NCBI GenBank assembly: GCA_027346765.1
Contig: DAIERN010000053.1
Span: 1 to 8,460, forward strand
DNA from: Chloroflexota bacterium
GTDB taxonomy: Bacteria > Chloroflexota > Limnocylindria > Limnocylindrales > CSP1-4
Length of the DNA stretch: 8,460 nucleotides
Direction: 5' to 3'
Part shown: one piece after another, positions 626 to 7,826 of the stretch
Numbering within the stretch: position 1 is the first letter of the stretch
Layout: every line of letters starts with the position of its first letter
Translations under genes and position numbers: made by a program
The notes under the pieces: model-generated
The model's database searches: none
The model's input: the letters and a program-made list of their open reading frames with translations, nothing else
What the model was told of the DNA's origin: nothing

Positions 626-1110
626 GCCGGCACGCGCTCGTCCTCACGATCAGCGACGGCGTCAGCGCCGGCACACGCCAGGATGAGAGCGGTGCGGTCC
701 TTGCCGCGCGGCTGGAGGAGCTCGGCTTCACGGTCGAGCGTCTGACGGTCCCCGATGAGATGGACGAGATCGCGACAGCGATCAGCGGCGCGACCGGCCA
801 CGCGGCGCTGGTGATAAGCACCGGCGGCACGGGCCTGGGCCCCAGGGACGTGACGCCACAGGCGCTGCGCGGGCTGCTTGATTACGAGATCCCGGGGTTC
901 GGCGAGCAGATGCGCGCATTCGGCCGCTCGCAGACGCCCCTGGCGGACCTGTCGCGCAGCATGGCCGGCGTGCTCGCCTCGACGCTGGTCATCGCGGTTC
1001 CCGGGAGCCGCGGCGGCGCACTCGACTCGCTGACGGCGATCGAGCCGCTGCTCGACCACGCGCTCGAGACGCTCGGCGGCCACACGCAGCACGCGAAGGC
1101 ACAGGAATGA
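622..1110 (+). CDS. mogA: Molybdopterin adenylyltransferase (MogA/MoaB family)
   Basis: This 162-residue protein belongs to the MogA/MoaB family, which adenylylates molybdopterin before molybdenum insertion. Visible motifs are ISDG at residues 10-13, the nucleotide and molybdopterin loop TGGTGLGPRDVT at 67-78, the segment LLDYEIPGFGEQMR at 85-98, and PGSRGG at 127-132. Length and motif order are normal for a single-domain family member. The start is a TTG at 622 that overlaps the moaC stop (TTGA), which suggests translational coupling; no in-frame ATG lies before the conserved N-terminal strand. Its own stop overlaps the start of the next gene as ATGA. MogA and MoaB homologues are hard to separate by eye, so the symbol is a family-level choice. 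Confidence 0.9.
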   Translation: MSRHALVLTISDGVSAGTRQDESGAVLAARLEELGFTVERLTVPDEMDEIATAISGATGHAALVISTGGTGLGPRDVTPQALRGLLDYEIPGFGEQMRAFGRSQTPLADLSRSMAGVLASTLVIAVPGSRGGALDSLTAIEPLLDHALETLGGHTQHAKAQE

Positions 1111-3194
1111 GCGTCGTCGACCGGATCCCGCTCTACCCGCTCGCGCCCGCGCTGTTCGTGCTCGCCGTGATCGGTTTCGTGCTCCTCATGGCGCGCCACC
1201 TGCGCGTCTTCGCGGTGGCGCAGCCGGCGCCTGTTGGCGATCGGCCGGGCTGGTTCACGTCGATGTTCAAGTACACGATCCTGCAGGTGCGGATGTTCCG
1301 CGATCTGGACGCGGGATTGATGCACGCCACGATCTTCTGGGGCTTCGTGATCCTGACCGTGGGCACGGCCGACCGCGTCACCTTTGGCCTGATCGAACAC
1401 ATCGTCCGGCCGCTGCTCGACGGCTGGCTGTGGCGGCTGCTGATGCTCAGCCAGAACATGTTCGTGCTGGGTGTCCTGGTGATGGTCGGCTATGCCCTGT
1501 TCCGTCGGCTCGTCTGGCGCTATCCCCGCCGGACGACGCTATCGCGCGACGCGCTGGTGATCCTGTTCCTTATCGGCGGGGTGGTGCTCAGCGAGTGGTT
1601 CGCCGAGGGCTTCCGGATTGCCGCGTACGGCGACCCGGACGCGGGCTGGGCGGTCATGGCGCTGCCGCTGTCGTACGTTCTCAAAGGCGTGCTGCCCGCG
1701 CAGGTCCTGAGCACCTGGTACGCGCTGTTCTTCTGGGCGAACGTCGCGCTGGTGTCGTTCTTCCTGGTCTACCTGCCCCATTCCAAGCACCTCCACATCG
1801 TCACCGCGTTCTTCAATGCCGCGCTGCGCAAAATGCAGCCGCGCGGCGAGCTGCCGCAGATCGATTTGGAAGCCGCGGACGCCCGATTCGGCGTCAAGAC
1901 AGTCGCCGACCTGTCGTGGAAGGACCTGCTCGATGGCTTCACCTGCACCGAGTGCGGGCGCTGCCAGGAGGCATGCCCGGCATGGGCAACAGGCAAGCCG
2001 CTCAACCCCAAGACGCTGATCATGGGCATCCGCGAGATGTCCGTCGAGGCGGAAGCCGGCGTGCCGCTCATCCCGTGGATCAAGCCGGGCGGCGGCACCG
2101 CTATCCATGGCACGGACAAGCCCATCGTCGACACCGCCATCCCGTATGACGCGGTGTGGGATTGCGTCACCTGTGGCGCCTGCGTGGAAGCGTGCCCGGT
2201 GCTGATCGAGCACGTCGACAAGATCGTCGGCCTGCGCCGCTCGCTGGTGCTGGAGGACGCGCGCTTCCCCGAGGAGCTGACCGCTTCGTTCAACAATCTC
2301 GAGCGCTACTCGAACATTTGGGGCCAGCCCCAAAGCACCCGGCTCGACTGGGCGAAAGGGCTGCCGTTCGAGGTACCGACTGCCGCGTCGGTGGTCGAAA
2401 CCGGCGGACCGGATGCTGTCGCAGACCTTGAATGCCTGTACTGGGTGGGCTGTGCCGCGTCATTCGACGATCGCAACCGCCGGGTCGCCCGCGCGGTCGT
2501 GTCCTGTCTGAACGCCGCCGGAGTGAAGTACGCGGTGCTCGGTCAGGAAGAGTCGTGCACGGGCGACCCGGCGCGCCGCATGGGCAACGACTACGTTTTC
2601 CAGATGCTCGCCATGGCCAACGTCGAGACGCTCAACCGCTACAAGCCCAAGCAGCTCATCACCGCGTGCCCGCACTGCTTCAACTCGCTCGGCAACGAGT
2701 ACGGCCAGCTGGGCGGCCACTACGACGTTGTGCACCACTCCCAATACCTGGCGCGGCTGGTAGAGGTGGGGCGGCTCCGCGTCGACGCGCGGCGCGAGGG
2801 TTCCGTCACGCTCCATGACTCGTGCTACCTCACGCGCTATAACGGCGTCATCGGCGAGACGCGCGAGGTTCTCAAGGCGGTCCCCGGCCTCGAGCTGCGC
2901 GAGATGTCACGCTCACGCAGCGAAACCCTCTGCTGTGGCGGCGGCGGTGGCCGCATGTGGATGGAAGAGAAGCGCGGCTCGCGCATCAACGCGGAACGAA
3001 CCAACCAGGCGCTCGCCACCGGCGCCGACGCCGTGGCCACCGCCTGTCCCTTCTGCCTGGTGATGATGCGCGACGGCGTGGCCGATTCTGGCTCGCGCGG
3101 CGAGGGCGTCGCGGTCCAGGACATCGCCGAGATCTTCGCCGCCGGCCTGCCGGCACCCGGCGCCAACGGGCGATCGCTACCGGTCGTCCAGTAG
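1107..3194 (+). CDS. FadF/EtfD-type membrane ETF:quinone oxidoreductase (Fe-S, CCG domains)
   Basis: This 695-residue protein has three parts. The first about 230 residues hold five to six hydrophobic helices (about 10-30, 73-93, 110-132, 148-167, 183-198, 203-224), with His73, His225, His228 and His230 at membrane edges as possible heme ligands, as in NarI-like domains. Two [4Fe-4S] motifs follow: C280, C283, C286, C290 and C353, C356, C359, C363. Two cysteine-rich CCG domains end it: C449, C484, C521, C524, then C573, C609-C610, C647, C650. This architecture matches HdrDE-like proteins including FadF (YwjF) of Bacillus and EtfD of mycobacteria, which accept electrons from EtfAB and reduce menaquinone. 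Acyl-CoA dehydrogenase and etfBA nearby support that role. The first CCG domain has Ser-Cys where the second has Cys-Cys. The ATG at 1107 overlaps the mogA stop; GAAGG lies 7 nt upstream. The last 18 bp overlap the convergent gene. Confidence 0.9.
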   Translation: MSVVDRIPLYPLAPALFVLAVIGFVLLMARHLRVFAVAQPAPVGDRPGWFTSMFKYTILQVRMFRDLDAGLMHATIFWGFVILTVGTADRVTFGLIEHIVRPLLDGWLWRLLMLSQNMFVLGVLVMVGYALFRRLVWRYPRRTTLSRDALVILFLIGGVVLSEWFAEGFRIAAYGDPDAGWAVMALPLSYVLKGVLPAQVLSTWYALFFWANVALVSFFLVYLPHSKHLHIVTAFFNAALRKMQPRGELPQIDLEAADARFGVKTVADLSWKDLLDGFTCTECGRCQEACPAWATGKPLNPKTLIMGIREMSVEAEAGVPLIPWIKPGGGTAIHGTDKPIVDTAIPYDAVWDCVTCGACVEACPVLIEHVDKIVGLRRSLVLEDARFPEELTASFNNLERYSNIWGQPQSTRLDWAKGLPFEVPTAASVVETGGPDAVADLECLYWVGCAASFDDRNRRVARAVVSCLNAAGVKYAVLGQEESCTGDPARRMGNDYVFQMLAMANVETLNRYKPKQLITACPHCFNSLGNEYGQLGGHYDVVHHSQYLARLVEVGRLRVDARREGSVTLHDSCYLTRYNGVIGETREVLKAVPGLELREMSRSRSETLCCGGGGGRMWMEEKRGSRINAERTNQALATGADAVATACPFCLVMMRDGVADSGSRGEGVAVQDIAEIFAAGLPAPGANGRSLPVVQ

Positions 3195-4718
3195 CGTCCT
3201 GACCGCCGCGTAACGCTGGGAAACGACGCTCACCGCCCAGCGCAGGAGCACGTTGCCCAGACGCGGCTCGAAGTGCGTCAAGGCCGTCTGACGCCGCTCC
3301 AACGCCCCGGTCAATCTCTGGAGACGCAGGCGCCGGCCCGTCCTGACAATCGCACGCTCGACCGGGGAGAACGGCCGCCGTCGTCGCCACGCCACCTTTC
3401 CTTGCTGGCCCGCGACGAAACGCTCGATCGACTGCCGGGTAGCCGGGCTGAACACCGTGAATCCGTCGCGCGGCGGCAGGGCCGTCGCTGCGCGCTTCGC
3501 CTGCGCGAACGTGCCGCGCTTGATGCCCGCTTCTTCGATCAGGCGGCGCGGGATTGGTCGGTCGTAATGACCACCGACCCGGAATGGATCCATCTCGCTC
3601 CGATCCAGCAGGTTCGGCGCGTCCAGCGTGCGGATCGCCCCGAACAAGGGCAGCGGCACCCACGCGAAGTCCGCCCGCAACCGGTACTCGGTGATGCCCG
3701 CGCCCGACGTGGTGATAGGCGCCACCTTCTGGTACGCGTCACGTGTGCTGAAGGCGAACTCCGGCCCGCCCCAGTAACCGTTGATCAGCATGGCGCGTTC
3801 CAGCGCAGGTTCAAGGCTGAGCAGCACGGTGTCCTCGCCGGCCATGCCCGACGCGAGCAGCTCGGCCTCTGCAAGGTCGTCGCGCGACTTGTACGCGCCG
3901 CGCTCGTAGGTGGTGAACGGCATGCCCAGCACCGCCGCCGCCGCCGCGCCGCTGTCATCGCCTTCCTGGGTTGATCCGCGCGGCGGCCGTGCGGTGGCAA
4001 AGCCGACGGCGCTCACCTGGCCCGGCGCGGCGGCGGCCACCACGGCGGCGACGGCCGTGCTGTCGTATCCCGCCGAGAGAGCAACAACCGGCTTGTACGG
4101 CGCGCCATTGGCGATCAGCGAGGCCGTCGCCGCCGTGATCCGCGCCTTGTAGTCGGCGAACGAGGCAAACGGCGCCTCGCGCGGCCGCCGCGATGCCTCC
4201 ACCGTGAGGTCGGGCGTGATGAGCAGGTTCTCGACGAACCAGCCGGTGATCGGCACCGTCGTCGTCGGGATCTCGAAGCGCTGGTGGCGCAGCCGCAGCC
4301 GTCCGTCGCGCGGCTCATCGATCATCCAGACCGACCGGACTGATTCGAGGAATCGGCCTGGGTAGTTGACGGCCGGGTCAAGCTCGAGCCCGGTCGCGGC
4401 GAGGAGTCCGACGAGCGAGTTGGAGACCGCCACCGCCTCGCTGGTCCGAGCGTAGTAGATGCATTCGAGGTGGTGCGTCGGTGGCACCGCGAAGAGGTTG
4501 CCGTCGCGCACGACCATGCCCGACCCGAACACGGTGGTCGACTCCGGCAACTGCGCCGGGTCGGCCGATCCGACCCAGGTGCCTTCGACCAGGCCACCGT
4601 CAAAGGTCCGCACCGACTCGCCGCAGTCGACCGTCACCCTTCGCGGCCGCACGGCGGCGACCCAGGCGAGCGGCGGCACCGTCGGCTGTCGCCGCATATC
4701 GAACTGCCACTCAGCCAT
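3177..4718 (-). CDS. Asparagine-synthase-like ATP-dependent amide ligase, no glutaminase Cys
   Basis: This 513-residue protein has an ATP-pyrophosphatase domain of the asparagine synthase type. The PP-loop is SAGYDS at residues 215-220 (bases 4059-4076), a variant of SGGxDS, set in a typical hydrophobic strand and small-residue helix. A degenerate second-loop region (INGYWGGPEF) is at about 312-321, and a basic segment (RRLIEEAGIKRGTFAQAKR) at about 391-409. Residues about 60-110 resemble the end of an N-terminal nucleophile glutaminase domain, but the protein starts MAEW, so the Cys2 nucleophile is absent. Free ammonia or a substrate amine would then be the nitrogen source, as in beta-lactam synthetase or lasso peptide cyclase relatives. 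The substrate is unknown. There is no signal peptide. The start ATG at 4718 is 7 nt downstream of TAGAAT, which suggests a leaderless message. The gene sits opposite to its neighbours and interrupts the ETF module. Confidence 0.75.
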   Translation of the reverse strand: MAEWQFDMRRQPTVPPLAWVAAVRPRRVTVDCGESVRTFDGGLVEGTWVGSADPAQLPESTTVFGSGMVVRDGNLFAVPPTHHLECIYYARTSEAVAVSNSLVGLLAATGLELDPAVNYPGRFLESVRSVWMIDEPRDGRLRLRHQRFEIPTTTVPITGWFVENLLITPDLTVEASRRPREAPFASFADYKARITAATASLIANGAPYKPVVALSAGYDSTAVAAVVAAAAPGQVSAVGFATARPPRGSTQEGDDSGAAAAAVLGMPFTTYERGAYKSRDDLAEAELLASGMAGEDTVLLSLEPALERAMLINGYWGGPEFAFSTRDAYQKVAPITTSGAGITEYRLRADFAWVPLPLFGAIRTLDAPNLLDRSEMDPFRVGGHYDRPIPRRLIEEAGIKRGTFAQAKRAATALPPRDGFTVFSPATRQSIERFVAGQQGKVAWRRRRPFSPVERAIVRTGRRLRLQRLTGALERRQTALTHFEPRLGNVLLRWAVSVVSQRYAAVRTLLDDR

Positions 4719-4725
4719 CCGGTGA

Positions 4726-4756
4726 ATTCTAGGAAGCGTCGGCTCGCGTCTGTCCC
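4726..4756 (-). promoter_or_regulatory. Predicted leaderless promoter of the asparagine-synthase-like gene
   Basis: Read on the minus strand, TAGAAT (4731-4726) fits the TANNNT -10 form and ends exactly 7 nt before the ATG at 4718. This would place transcription start at or within a base of the start codon. A weak -35 match, GGGACA (4756-4751), lies 19 nt upstream, which is longer than ideal. No Shine-Dalgarno sequence precedes the ATG. The -10 spacing is seen directly; promoter activity is inferred. Confidence 0.4.
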
Positions 4757-4764
4757 GGTGGTCG

Positions 4765-4862
4765 TATGTGCCGACACGACTGGATATGCGCCGACACGAC
4801 TAAATATGCGGGTACAGACATGTCTAATCGGCTCGGCACATATTTAGTCGGCTCGGCACATG
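4765..4862. repeat. Array of four 20-bp repeats, two in each orientation
   Basis: Four copies of a 20-bp unit, consensus TATGTGCCGASMCGACTAAA, fill the middle of the divergent intergenic region. Copies at 4765-4784 and 4785-4804 are head-to-tail on the plus strand (CCGACACGAC core). Copies at 4823-4842 and 4843-4862 are head-to-tail on the minus strand (core CCGAGCCGAC, one copy CCGAGCCGAT). Between the two pairs lies a partial unit (TATGCG at 4805-4810) and a perfect 10-bp palindrome, AGACATGTCT, at 4816-4825. Outer edges form an imperfect inverted repeat, GGTC plus ATGTGCCGA, at 4760-4774 and 4853-4865. The region is AT-richer than its flanks. It could be an operator array or a remnant or miniature mobile element; the sequence alone does not decide. 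Confidence 0.85.
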
Positions 4863-4889
4863 ACCCTCTTTCTGGCGAGTCGGTAGCAT
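4860..4889 (+). promoter_or_regulatory. Predicted leaderless promoter of the acyl-CoA dehydrogenase operon
   Basis: TAGCAT at 4884-4889 fits TANNNT and ends exactly 7 nt before the ATG at 4897. ATGACC at 4860-4865 is a 4 of 6 match to the TTGACA -35 box with an 18-nt spacer. No Shine-Dalgarno sequence precedes the ATG. The -35 overlaps the last copy of the 20-bp repeat, so anything bound there could affect this promoter. Activity is inferred. Confidence 0.4.
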
Positions 4890-4896
4890 CGGGCTG

Positions 4897-6051
4897 ATGA
4901 CCGTTCTCAACGAAGAGCAGCAGGCGTTGCGCGACGCCGTGCGCGAGCTCGCGCAGGACAAGATCGCGCCGCGCGCCGCCGCAATCGACGCGAGCGGCGA
5001 GTTCCCGCGCGATATCGTCGACTTGCTCGCCCAGCACGACATCATGGCGCTGCCGTTCCCGGTCGAGTTCGGCGGCCTGGGCGGCGACATGGTTTCCATC
5101 CTCGTCGTGATCGAGGAGATCAGCCGCGTCGACGCAAGCTGCGGCCTGATCCCCGCCGTGCAGGAGCTGGGCTCGCTACCGCTGCTCCATGGCGGCACGG
5201 AAGAGCAGAAGCAGCGCTGGGTCCCCGACCTCGCGGCCGGCAAGATCCTCAGCGCCTTTGCACTGACCGAAGCCGGCGCCGGCTCCGACGCGGCCAACGC
5301 GCGCACCAATGCCAAGCGCGACGGCGAGGACTGGATCCTCAACGGCGAGAAGCGCTTCATCAGCCAGGGCGACGTGGCCGATGTCGTGGCCGTGTTCGCG
5401 GTCACAGACACGGCGCCAGAAGCGGTCAAGGCGCACCGCCATATGACCTGCTTCTACGTTGAGAAGGGCACGCCGGGCTTCACCAGCCCAAGAGTCGAGC
5501 ACAAGATGGGCATCCGCGGCTCGACCACGGCCGAGCTCGCCTTCCAGAACGCCCGGGTGAGTGACGCGAACCGCGTGGGTGAGGTCGGCGACGGCTGGGG
5601 CCTGGCGATGAAGACGTTCGAACGCAGCCGGCCGGGCATCGGTGCCCAGGCGGTCGGGATCGCCCAGGGCGCGACGGACATCGCGGTCAAGTACGCGAGT
5701 GAGCGCAAGCAGTTCGGCAAGCCAATCGGCGCGCACCAGATGATCGGCGCGATGCTGGCCGACATGGCCACGCGCACTGAGGCCGCACGCCAGCTCCTGT
5801 GGGCCGCGGCGGAGCACATCGAGCGCGGCGACCCCCACGCCGCGCGCTGGGCCAGCATGTGCAAGCTATTTGCCGGCGACACCGCGATGGCGGTCACCAC
5901 TGACGCGGTCCAGGTGCTGGGCGGCTACGGCTACACCACCGAGTACCCGGTCGAGCGAATGATGCGCGACGCCAAGATCACGCAGCTTTACGAAGGCACG
6001 CAGCAGATCCAGCGGCTGATCATCGCCCGCGATCTTCTGGCCAGCCTGTAA
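4897..6051 (+). CDS. Acyl-CoA dehydrogenase
   Basis: This 384-residue flavoprotein is of normal family length and would catalyse alpha,beta-dehydrogenation of an acyl-CoA, with FAD as cofactor and ETF as electron acceptor. The first family signature, FALTEAGAGSD, is at residues 121-131. The C-terminal signature runs from QVLGGYGYTTEYP to the active-site segment YEGTQQIQR, where Glu366 is in the position of the catalytic base of medium- and short-chain enzymes. The FAD-contacting segment RKQFGKPIG lies at about 270-278. Chain-length or branched-chain specificity cannot be read from sequence alone. ATG at 4897 is the first plausible start; the family N-terminal helix (NEEQQALRDAVRELAQ) follows directly. 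The gene heads a run with etfB 12 nt downstream and etfA, which are its expected partners. Confidence 0.93.
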   Translation: MTVLNEEQQALRDAVRELAQDKIAPRAAAIDASGEFPRDIVDLLAQHDIMALPFPVEFGGLGGDMVSILVVIEEISRVDASCGLIPAVQELGSLPLLHGGTEEQKQRWVPDLAAGKILSAFALTEAGAGSDAANARTNAKRDGEDWILNGEKRFISQGDVADVVAVFAVTDTAPEAVKAHRHMTCFYVEKGTPGFTSPRVEHKMGIRGSTTAELAFQNARVSDANRVGEVGDGWGLAMKTFERSRPGIGAQAVGIAQGATDIAVKYASERKQFGKPIGAHQMIGAMLADMATRTEAARQLLWAAAEHIERGDPHAARWASMCKLFAGDTAMAVTTDAVQVLGGYGYTTEYPVERMMRDAKITQLYEGTQQIQRLIIARDLLASL

Positions 6052-6063
6052 CCTCCGTTGCCG

Positions 6064-6840
6064 ATGAACATCGTCGTGTTGCTCAAGGCCGTGCCCGTCG
6101 TGGGCACAGAGCGCCTGGATTCGGGGCTGCTGACCGATCGGTCGGTCCAGCTAGAAGCCAACGGCAACGACGAGTACCTGCTCGAGAAGGCGCTCAAGCT
6201 GACCGAGACGCACGGCGGCGAGACGATCACGCTGACCGTCGGGCCGGCCGGGTCAATGGAGCCGATCCGCAAGGCGCTGGCGATGGGCGCGACGCGCGCG
6301 GTGCACGTCGCCGATGACGCGCTACGCGGGTCGGACATGCGGGCGACGCTCGAGGTCCTGACCGCCGCGCTCAAGAAGATGCAGCCGTGGGACCTGGTTT
6401 TCGCGGGCGCGGACACGTCAGACGGGCAGGGTGGCGTGCTGGGCGCGGCGCTGGCCGTCCGATTGGGCATGCCCTATTTGTCATACGCGAGCGAGATCGA
6501 GCCGACCGATGGCGGGGTGCGGATCCACCGCATCAACCCGACCGGGTATGACATCCTCGAGGCGCCGACGCCGGCCGTGGTCATGGGCACGCAGCTGCTG
6601 GGCGCGCCGCGCTACCCGTCGTTGCGCGGCATCATGCAGGCGCGCTCCAAGCCAGTTGAGGCATGGACTCTCGCCGACCTTGACCTGGCGCCCGCGGCCG
6701 TTGGCGGGGGAGCGGCCACCACCAAGACGCTCGATGCCTCCAAGCCCCCCGAGCGGGCCGGCGCGACCTTCGTCCGCGACGCGGCCGATGACGCGGTCGC
6801 CAAGGTCGTCGACTTCCTGGCGAGCCGGAGGCTCATCTGA
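6064..6840 (+). CDS. etfB: Electron transfer flavoprotein beta subunit
   Basis: EtfB binds AMP and, with EtfA, forms the soluble ETF that takes electrons from acyl-CoA dehydrogenases. The 258-residue protein opens with the typical strand MNIVVLLKAVP. The nucleotide-binding segment AGADTSDGQGGVLG is at residues 114-127. The beta-subunit signature, in the form PRYPSLRGIMQARSKPV, is at 182-198. I chose the ATG at 6064 because it fits the family N-terminus; a TTG at 6058 would add only Met-Pro. Neither has a visible Shine-Dalgarno sequence, and the gene follows the acyl-CoA dehydrogenase stop by 12 nt, so coupling is likely. The stop overlaps the etfA start by one base (TGATG). Confidence 0.93.
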   Translation: MNIVVLLKAVPVVGTERLDSGLLTDRSVQLEANGNDEYLLEKALKLTETHGGETITLTVGPAGSMEPIRKALAMGATRAVHVADDALRGSDMRATLEVLTAALKKMQPWDLVFAGADTSDGQGGVLGAALAVRLGMPYLSYASEIEPTDGGVRIHRINPTGYDILEAPTPAVVMGTQLLGAPRYPSLRGIMQARSKPVEAWTLADLDLAPAAVGGGAATTKTLDASKPPERAGATFVRDAADDAVAKVVDFLASRRLI

Positions 6841-7163
6841 TGGCGAGCCAGATCTGGGCGATCGGCGAGATTGCCGACGGCCAGCCGACCAAGCTGACGC
6901 TGGAGCTGGCGACCCTCGCCCGCACGCTCGCGACTGCAAGTGGGGGAGAGGCTCGAACCGTGCTGATCGGCGCTGGCGCCGGTGCGGCGGGTGACGCCGC
7001 GGCGGCATACGGGCCCGACGTGCTGGCGGTCGATGTCGACGGGCTGGCCGACCGACCGGTGGCTGCGATGGTCGCACCCCGGGTGGCAGCGCTGGTGGCC
7101 GAAAGGAAGCCCGACTTCCTGTTGGTCGGTGCCTCGAACGACGGCAAGGACATCGCAGGTTAA
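6840..7163 (+). CDS. etfA: EtfA N-terminal part, ended by an in-frame TAA
   Basis: These 107 codons encode the start of an ETF alpha subunit, including IWAIGEI near the N-terminus and the segment DFLLVGASNDGKDIAG at about residues 92-107. The frame ends at TAA 7161-7163, where family members continue with an Arg or similar residue followed by a Leu-rich helix. The remainder of EtfA follows immediately in the same frame. The break lies inside domain I, not at a domain boundary, so this piece alone should not fold into a working subunit. ATG at 6840 overlaps the etfB stop (TGATG), as is usual for etfBA pairs. Confidence 0.88.
   Translation: MASQIWAIGEIADGQPTKLTLELATLARTLATASGGEARTVLIGAGAGAAGDAAAAYGPDVLAVDVDGLADRPVAAMVAPRVAALVAERKPDFLLVGASNDGKDIAG
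7161..7163 (+). other. In-frame TAA interrupting etfA
   Basis: A single ochre codon separates two parts of one EtfA reading frame with no shift of frame and no lost residues relative to the family spacing. By my reading it occupies the position of a commonly conserved Arg (the DIAxR pattern). A CGN to TAA change needs at least two base substitutions. TTG follows directly (TAATTG), so re-initiation is conceivable. Assembly error, a true nonsense mutation and recoding are all possible; error or mutation is most likely. Confidence 0.9.
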
Positions 7164-7826
7164 TTGCTCGGACTGACCGACCTGCCGCTCCTCGCCAACG
7201 GCTCCGGCGTGACGTGGGGCGACGCCGCGCCCAACGTGGAGATGAGCACCTTTGGCGGCAAGCTGGTCACGCACAGCACCTTCGCCGGCACGCGCGGCAT
7301 GATCATCGTCCGGCCGGCTTCGGTCAGCGCCGAGCCCGCGTCGGCGCCGGGCAGGGTGGAGCAGGTCAACGTGACCGTCAGCGACGAGCTGCCGGCCGTG
7401 AAGATCACCGGCTCAGTCGAGGAGTCCGGTGCTGCCGCGCCCATCGAGGAGGCGCGGATCATCGTTGGCGCGGGGCGCGGCATCGGCTCTGTTGACGGCC
7501 TGAAAGTGATCGAAGACCTGGCCGCGGCGCTGGGTGGTGCCGTGGGCGCGACCAGAGCAGTGGTCGATTCCGGTTGGGTGCCGTACGGCCAGCAGATCGG
7601 CCAGACCGGCAAGATCGTCAAGCCGTCGCTGTACGTCGCGTGCGGCATCAGTGGCGCCATCCAGCACAAGGTGGGCGTCCAGACCGCGGGCACGATCATC
7701 GCCATCAACCGCGACGCAGACGCACCAATCGCCGAGTTTGCCGACCTGTTCGTGGTCGGTGACCTGTTCGAAATCGTGCCGCGCCTGACCGCAGCGCTGC
7801 GCGCCCGCAAATCAGAGAGCGCCTAA
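7164..7826 (+). CDS. etfA: EtfA C-terminal part with FAD-binding domain
   Basis: This part carries the FAD-binding domain of the ETF alpha subunit. Visible features are ARIIVGAGRGIG at about residues 97-108 of this piece, the FAD contact segment VPYGQQIGQTGK at 139-150, and the alpha-subunit signature SLYVACGISGAIQH at 155-168, followed by AGTIIAINRDADAPIAEFADLFVVGD. Together with the 107 codons upstream the length is about 327 residues, normal for EtfA. The only start at the break is TTG at 7164, directly after the TAA; the next in-frame ATG is at 7242. If the stop is real and not bypassed, ETF function from this locus is probably lost, unless re-initiation yields two complementing pieces. 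Confidence 0.88.
   Translation: MLGLTDLPLLANGSGVTWGDAAPNVEMSTFGGKLVTHSTFAGTRGMIIVRPASVSAEPASAPGRVEQVNVTVSDELPAVKITGSVEESGAAAPIEEARIIVGAGRGIGSVDGLKVIEDLAAALGGAVGATRAVVDSGWVPYGQQIGQTGKIVKPSLYVACGISGAIQHKVGVQTAGTIIAINRDADAPIAEFADLFVVGDLFEIVPRLTAALRARKSESA

Follow-up and report, generated by a model that had tools for sequence, protein, structure and literature searches.

A putative four-site operator array at an acyl-CoA dehydrogenase gene in a small clade of Chloroflexota

The stretch of DNA analysed here (the window; 8,460 nt of contig DAIERN010000053.1 in assembly GCA_027346765.1, from a Chloroflexota bacterium of the group CSP1-4) carries two divergent genes, one coding for an acyl-CoA dehydrogenase (ACAD) and one for an asparagine-synthase-like protein. 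The flanking reading frames (3177-4718 on the minus strand, 4897-6051 on the plus strand) confirm the intergenic limits of 4719..4896 set in an earlier note on this DNA. In front of the ACAD gene lies an array of four near-identical 20-bp units, two on the plus strand followed by two on the minus strand, which spans 98 bp (4765-4862). The features of the locus are compiled below in window positions, together with the sites that differ in the orthologous array of the MAG Chloroflexota bin11 (G001).

3177..4718, minus strand: asparagine-synthase-like gene, 513 aa, divergent from ACAD; possible second target of the array
4726..4731, minus strand: probable -10 box of the asparagine-synthase-like gene (TAGAAT), 7 nt before the ATG
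4765..4784, plus strand: unit 1 (CA type), facing the asparagine-synthase-like gene; 2 of its 20 positions changed in G001
4785..4804, plus strand: unit 2 (CA type); 2 of its 20 positions changed in G001
4805..4822, no strand: spacer between the pairs, 18 bp, its first six bases another TATGCG; of equal length in G001, with 5 of 18 positions changed
4823..4842, minus strand: unit 3 (GC type); 1 of its 20 positions changed in G001
4843..4862, minus strand: unit 4 (GC type), adjoining the ACAD promoter; 1 of its 20 positions changed in G001
4860..4865, plus strand: possible weak -35 box of ACAD (ATGACC), read by eye, overlapping unit 4 by 3 bp, absent from the promoter scan
4884..4889, plus strand: probable -10 box of ACAD (TAGCAT), leaderless, 7 nt before the ATG
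4897..6051, plus strand: ACAD gene, 384 aa (Pfam PF00441, PF02770, PF02771); likely target of the array

The 513-aa asparagine-synthase-like protein has no above-threshold match in Pfam, NCBIfam or PDB sequences, and a sub-threshold Pfam match alone (PF00733, E = 0.15). Pfam scans of the window ORFs and of a set of seven proteins showed no regulator.

When a unit is defined by at most two mismatches to the consensus TATGTGCCGASMCGACTAAA, the window holds four matches and each of 200 dinucleotide shuffles holds none, which substantiates the head-to-tail pair described earlier for each strand; a repeat search recovered both direct pairs with the exact 20-bp period and, within the array, an inverted repeat of 43 nt that is 77% complementary. 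Further symmetry elements proposed in the earlier note fared less well. The 10-bp palindrome AGACATGTCT is present at 4816-4825, but it overlaps unit 3 instead of lying cleanly between the pairs, and it is not conserved, since it reads AAACATTTCT in the G001 orthologue; as a third site it was accordingly discarded. The outer inverted ends (4760, 4865) amount to a short imperfect GGTC match.

When genome_contigs (84,980 species) was scanned for exact copies of two adjoining units, three contigs emerged (L001, L002 and L003), all from Chloroflexota MAGs. L002 is the same locus as the window, 99.4% identical over 4.9 kb, in the MAG Chloroflexi WY5.bin150 (G002). L001 and L003, both contig ends from G001, share an overlap of 66 bp (one mismatch) and are most simply taken as one locus, array 2; with mismatches allowed, the orthologous array at the ACAD place (array 1, 88%) was found on G001 contig C83. 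The copy number, even at E values up to 10, is thus one array in G002 and two in G001, both being incomplete draft bins, with array 2 assembled from two contig ends. An extra site on contig C98 of G002 was dropped as merely a 13-bp core match. The genome-wide consensus search that had been proposed earlier therefore yields few copies, as an operator would have it, one of which, however, lies not beside ACAD but between a NUDIX and an aldehyde dehydrogenase (ALDH) gene.

Among 393 genomes of the class of G002 and 101 relatives of G001, the array was present in one each, namely in G002 and G001 themselves. In the phylum of G002, the pair pattern (≤3 mismatches) occurs in 4 of 400 genomes including G002; as the control gave 7 hits, the three others are regarded as background, and so are the single-unit matches (≤3 mismatches) in 98 other genomes, which number 26 against 58 for the reversed-pattern control (manual counts). 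Plasmids, phages and viral contigs gave no array match, and an element of these kinds was rejected on this ground. In this context one should recall that G002's relatives are the wrong neighbourhood for the locus, and searches among them say less than those among the relatives of G001. ACAD matches of 60-74% were counted by hand in at least 49 of 101 relatives of G001, compared with a best match of 57% among the relatives of G002 (G002 itself excluded). The locus consequently belongs to the neighbourhood of G001, and the same comparison suggests that L002 (G002 contig C187, coverage 1.18 in its title) is probably misbinned.

Array 2 is flanked by two genes recognized by Pfam:

L001 118-564: NUDIX gene, on one side of array 2
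L003 173-1732: ALDH gene, on the other side of array 2

Array 2 matches array 1 unit by unit and in equal order (78% over 105 bp), with small deletions, and it is doubtful whether the outer flanks are homologous (shuffle fractions: right 0.037, left 0.61). Eleven units can be listed from the three arrays (four from the window, four from array 1 and three from array 2, whose fourth unit, with deletions, was excluded), and these show no variation at ATG.., C7, G9, A10, G14 and T17. As far as the units reach, the plus-strand pair of all three arrays has CA at positions 11-12, where the minus-strand pair has GC, and array 2 keeps the two types in the order of array 1. In 14 ALDH orthologues (77-86%), the retrieved flanks showed neither a match to NUDIX nor a unit-like site, L152, which is masked just upstream, saying little. 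The ALDH gene is an unlikely target of array 2, since it has its own GTGACC-N4-GTCAC-like palindrome and -10 box, shared with L151 and L154, where the array does not recur. This palindrome-like motif (GTGACC-ACAA-GTCAC), followed by a leaderless -10, is seen in the ALDH promoters of G001 (L003, about 108-124), L151 and L154, and may represent a separate, older operator candidate.

The claim that the array sits between two predicted -35 boxes receives no support from a sigma-70 promoter scan, which returned 0 promoters in 4680-4930; -10-like boxes at leaderless distance are found instead. Leaderless bacterial promoters carry TANNNT just upstream of the start codon, and TAGAAT and TAGCAT, 7 nt before the two window start codons, conform to this pattern, an ordinary likeness which merely places the array. 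The closest ACAD orthologue among the matches listed (L120) reads TAGCAT-N7-GTG. In a survey of 63 ORFs with 161 candidate starts (20 contigs of G001 and G002, plus the window, L001 and L003), TANNNT stands 6-7 nt before 8 of the 161 starts, compared with 10 occurrences over the other 29 offsets, and three of these eight starts are those of the ACAD, asparagine-synthase-like and ALDH genes. Both window genes are probably leaderless on this evidence, and their -10 signals would locate the array upstream of transcription. The array edge lies 21 bp from the -10 box of ACAD and 33 bp from that of the asparagine-synthase-like gene; for array 2, the corresponding distance is 106 bp on the ALDH side, and on the NUDIX side the edge overlaps the -10 box by one base (about -1 bp).

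Comparison of the window with array 1 of G001, a single orthologue pair with a short spacer, indicates that the units have changed slowly. Differences affect 6 of 80 unit positions, against 86 of 314 fourfold-degenerate sites (77/276 in the stretch of the FeS oxidoreductase gene, or FeS gene, and 9/38 in that of ACAD; Fisher p = 9e-5) and 5 of 18 spacer positions (p = 0.027), the first six bases of the spacer, TATGCG, being unchanged. The spacer is indistinguishable from the fourfold sites (p = 1.0), and the two pairs of units do not differ significantly from each other (4/40 in units 1-2, 2/40 in units 3-4; p = 0.68). Both the 20-bp period and the 18-bp spacing are retained exactly. From these proportions the units look constrained by selection and the spacer does not. 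A point against an operator is the flank between the array and the ACAD start, i.e. the ACAD promoter, where 3 of 34 positions differ, so that it is about as conserved as the units.

The history of the locus can be followed further in G001, in which DNA matching window 3258-4762 is missing. This deletes nearly all of the asparagine-synthase-like gene, a C-terminal remnant of which adjoins the FeS gene (translated by eye), and the array and the ACAD promoter are retained. The best 30 of at least 49 orthologous ACAD loci (62-74% identity) were inspected over 400 bp upstream. The FeS gene lies upstream of ACAD in 21 of these 30, within 150 bp in nine of them, and etfB lies downstream in 29, but the asparagine-synthase-like gene occurs in none; nor does a unit-like site occur within the 400 bp, the best candidates having 7-9 mismatches of 18. 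These gene counts argue that the FeS-ACAD-ETF order is old and that the array and the asparagine-synthase-like gene are later arrivals. Control by way of the array would hence be young at best. The earlier note had expected both of its readings, operator and mobile element, to lose ground if there were neither a further copy nor conservation upstream of orthologous genes; a further copy and a close orthologue do exist, but the 30 more distant orthologues lack the array.

Taken with somewhat better than even confidence, the array can be rationalized as a young, clade-restricted putative operator array for an ACAD regulator, copied once en bloc. Two points make this the best reading: the units seem to be under selection, and in G001 the array has survived the loss of the divergent gene. 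From the observed sites, their conservation and their placement close to leaderless -10 boxes, we infer a regulator, its binding and possible directions of control. The four 20-bp sites would bind one DNA-binding regulator, with both protein units of a head-to-tail pair on the same helical face, 20 bp being nearly two turns. The minus-strand pair, which abuts the leaderless ACAD promoter, would control ACAD and maybe also the ETF genes that follow, and the plus-strand pair would face the divergent asparagine-synthase-like gene. The spacing at ACAD would suit an activator touching RNA polymerase at the -35 region, and the overlap of array 2 with the -10/-35 stretch of the NUDIX gene would suit a repressor; a fixed activator geometry is not apparent, as the four distances between array edge and -10 box differ. 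An operator array for a fatty-acid-responsive regulator had been proposed earlier. Its operator part gains from the unit-specific conservation, the few copies and the place kept at the ACAD promoter, but the fatty-acid-responsive part is a guess from the neighbouring gene, and array 2 sits at the start of the NUDIX gene, about 106 bp from the ALDH -10 box.

AraC and XylS use tandem direct sites next to the -35 region (e.g. araI1-I2), and the array likewise offers tandem direct sites near a possible -35. For AggR, an activator of the AraC-XylS type, the sites are reported to lie 21-22 bp from the -10 box (PMC6392122), close to the 21 bp at ACAD. The array differs in its second, facing pair, it matches no motif tested, and the distances at the other promoters vary. 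If the operator reading is true, it would provide a recognisable operator for an ACAD gene beside electron-transfer genes in an unstudied Chloroflexota group, with a spacing that is simple to test, and a small case of a new four-site operator arising in one clade and gaining a copy at a second locus. The general picture of gene control would remain unchanged; the case is locally interesting and of an ordinary kind.

The strongest competitor to the operator reading, although itself rather unlikely, is a tiny non-autonomous mobile element or its remnant, with IS21-like ends and a middle mostly lost, which would have inserted by ACAD in the common ancestor and again by ALDH in G001. In the IS21 family (PMC10122671), the ends consist of two direct repeats each (L1/L2, R1/R2) with a terminal CA and AT-rich DNA between GC-rich boxes, and target duplications are 5 bp long. 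The array shares with these ends the two direct repeats per end, the inversion between ends, a TG...CA near the outer edges and an AT-rich stretch between GC-rich boxes. It differs in having neither istA nor istB, in the 18 bp between its ends, in its one or two copies per bin and in the conservation of its units, the spacer not being conserved. None of the three arrays has a direct repeat of 4-12 bp at its edges; for target duplication this is a weak test, because such repeats turn up at 195 of 500 random places. The close match of array 2 to array 1, set in flanks without clear homology, favours insertion, as does the late arrival of both the array and the asparagine-synthase-like gene, neither of which is found in the 30 best loci, 21 of which have the FeS gene upstream of ACAD. 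Further points tell against it, namely that the base just beyond the would-be TG...CA ends is always an A, in all 11 units listed and so also in the outermost ones, that plasmids, phages and viral contigs gave no match, and that an autonomous partner, in the form of further tandem units, is absent from the incomplete drafts G001 and G002. A search for rve transposase genes gave one in G001, with different end-like repeats nearby, and none in G002. The mobile element put forward in the earlier note as the competing idea is thereby weakened (no target duplication, no element with such ends, other repeats by the rve gene) and is sustained by the likeness of array 2 between unlike flanks; a mobile origin would be compatible with later use as an operator. 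As a separate observation, four copies of the repeat GATCGG..CATCGTGAACG lie upstream of the rve gene in L094 of G001 (about 783-898), and this gene was judged IS21-like by its look.

A further variant, held to be improbable to a slightly greater degree than the mobile element, would make the array a self-contained regulatory cassette, copied or moved whole, which arrived by a newcomer gene, kept its asymmetry at both places and was fixed by selection for a new control of ACAD. The asymmetry may, with the same low confidence, follow a rule, the CA pair pointing toward the newcomer gene and the GC pair toward the resident metabolic gene at both known places.

A tandem and inverted duplication of promoter DNA that is neutral and has no function today would explain why the array is confined to one small clade and is carried by none of the 30 best, more distant ACAD orthologues, but it is very improbable given that the units differ at 6/80 positions against 86/314 at fourfold sites. 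Only marginally less probable again is an action as RNA, in which the array would be transcribed from upstream (the G001 FeS gene reads toward ACAD) and its 43-nt arms would form a long hairpin with fixed internal loops affecting the ACAD mRNA. The plus strand does fold strongly (-52.5, -40.0 and -46.3 kcal/mol, with z of -8.0, -4.3 and -6.8, for the window, array 1 and array 2 of G001), and, with G-U accepted as a pair, three transitions among the six changes that separate the window from G001 preserve or create pairing (manual count). Yet any inverted copy of one site folds likewise, and the other three changes are transversions that break pairs (manual count). Of 40 positions in facing units, 30 form Watson-Crick pairs in the window and 26 in G001, and a leaderless -10 box for ACAD lies downstream of the array. 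Rfam gave 5 sub-threshold matches alone (E 0.18-0.96) and none above the gathering score, and a known structured RNA was accordingly rejected. REP and BIME elements are short inverted pairs in intergenic DNA with many copies per genome, and the array, which is likewise made of short inverted pairs in intergenic DNA, shows no trace of the REP-like spread once considered for it, the one and two arrays ruling out a dispersed repeat of this kind in both bins.

Two minor features of the window may be added. The etfA-like frame at 6840-7826 is broken by one in-frame TAA at 7161-7163, which may be an error or real; no second copy covers it. Within the FeS oxidoreductase gene, 24 of the 34 alignment columns that differ between the window and L002 (alignment over window 950-5864) are clustered at 2907-3107, a cluster which is either a recombination tract or an assembly chimera.
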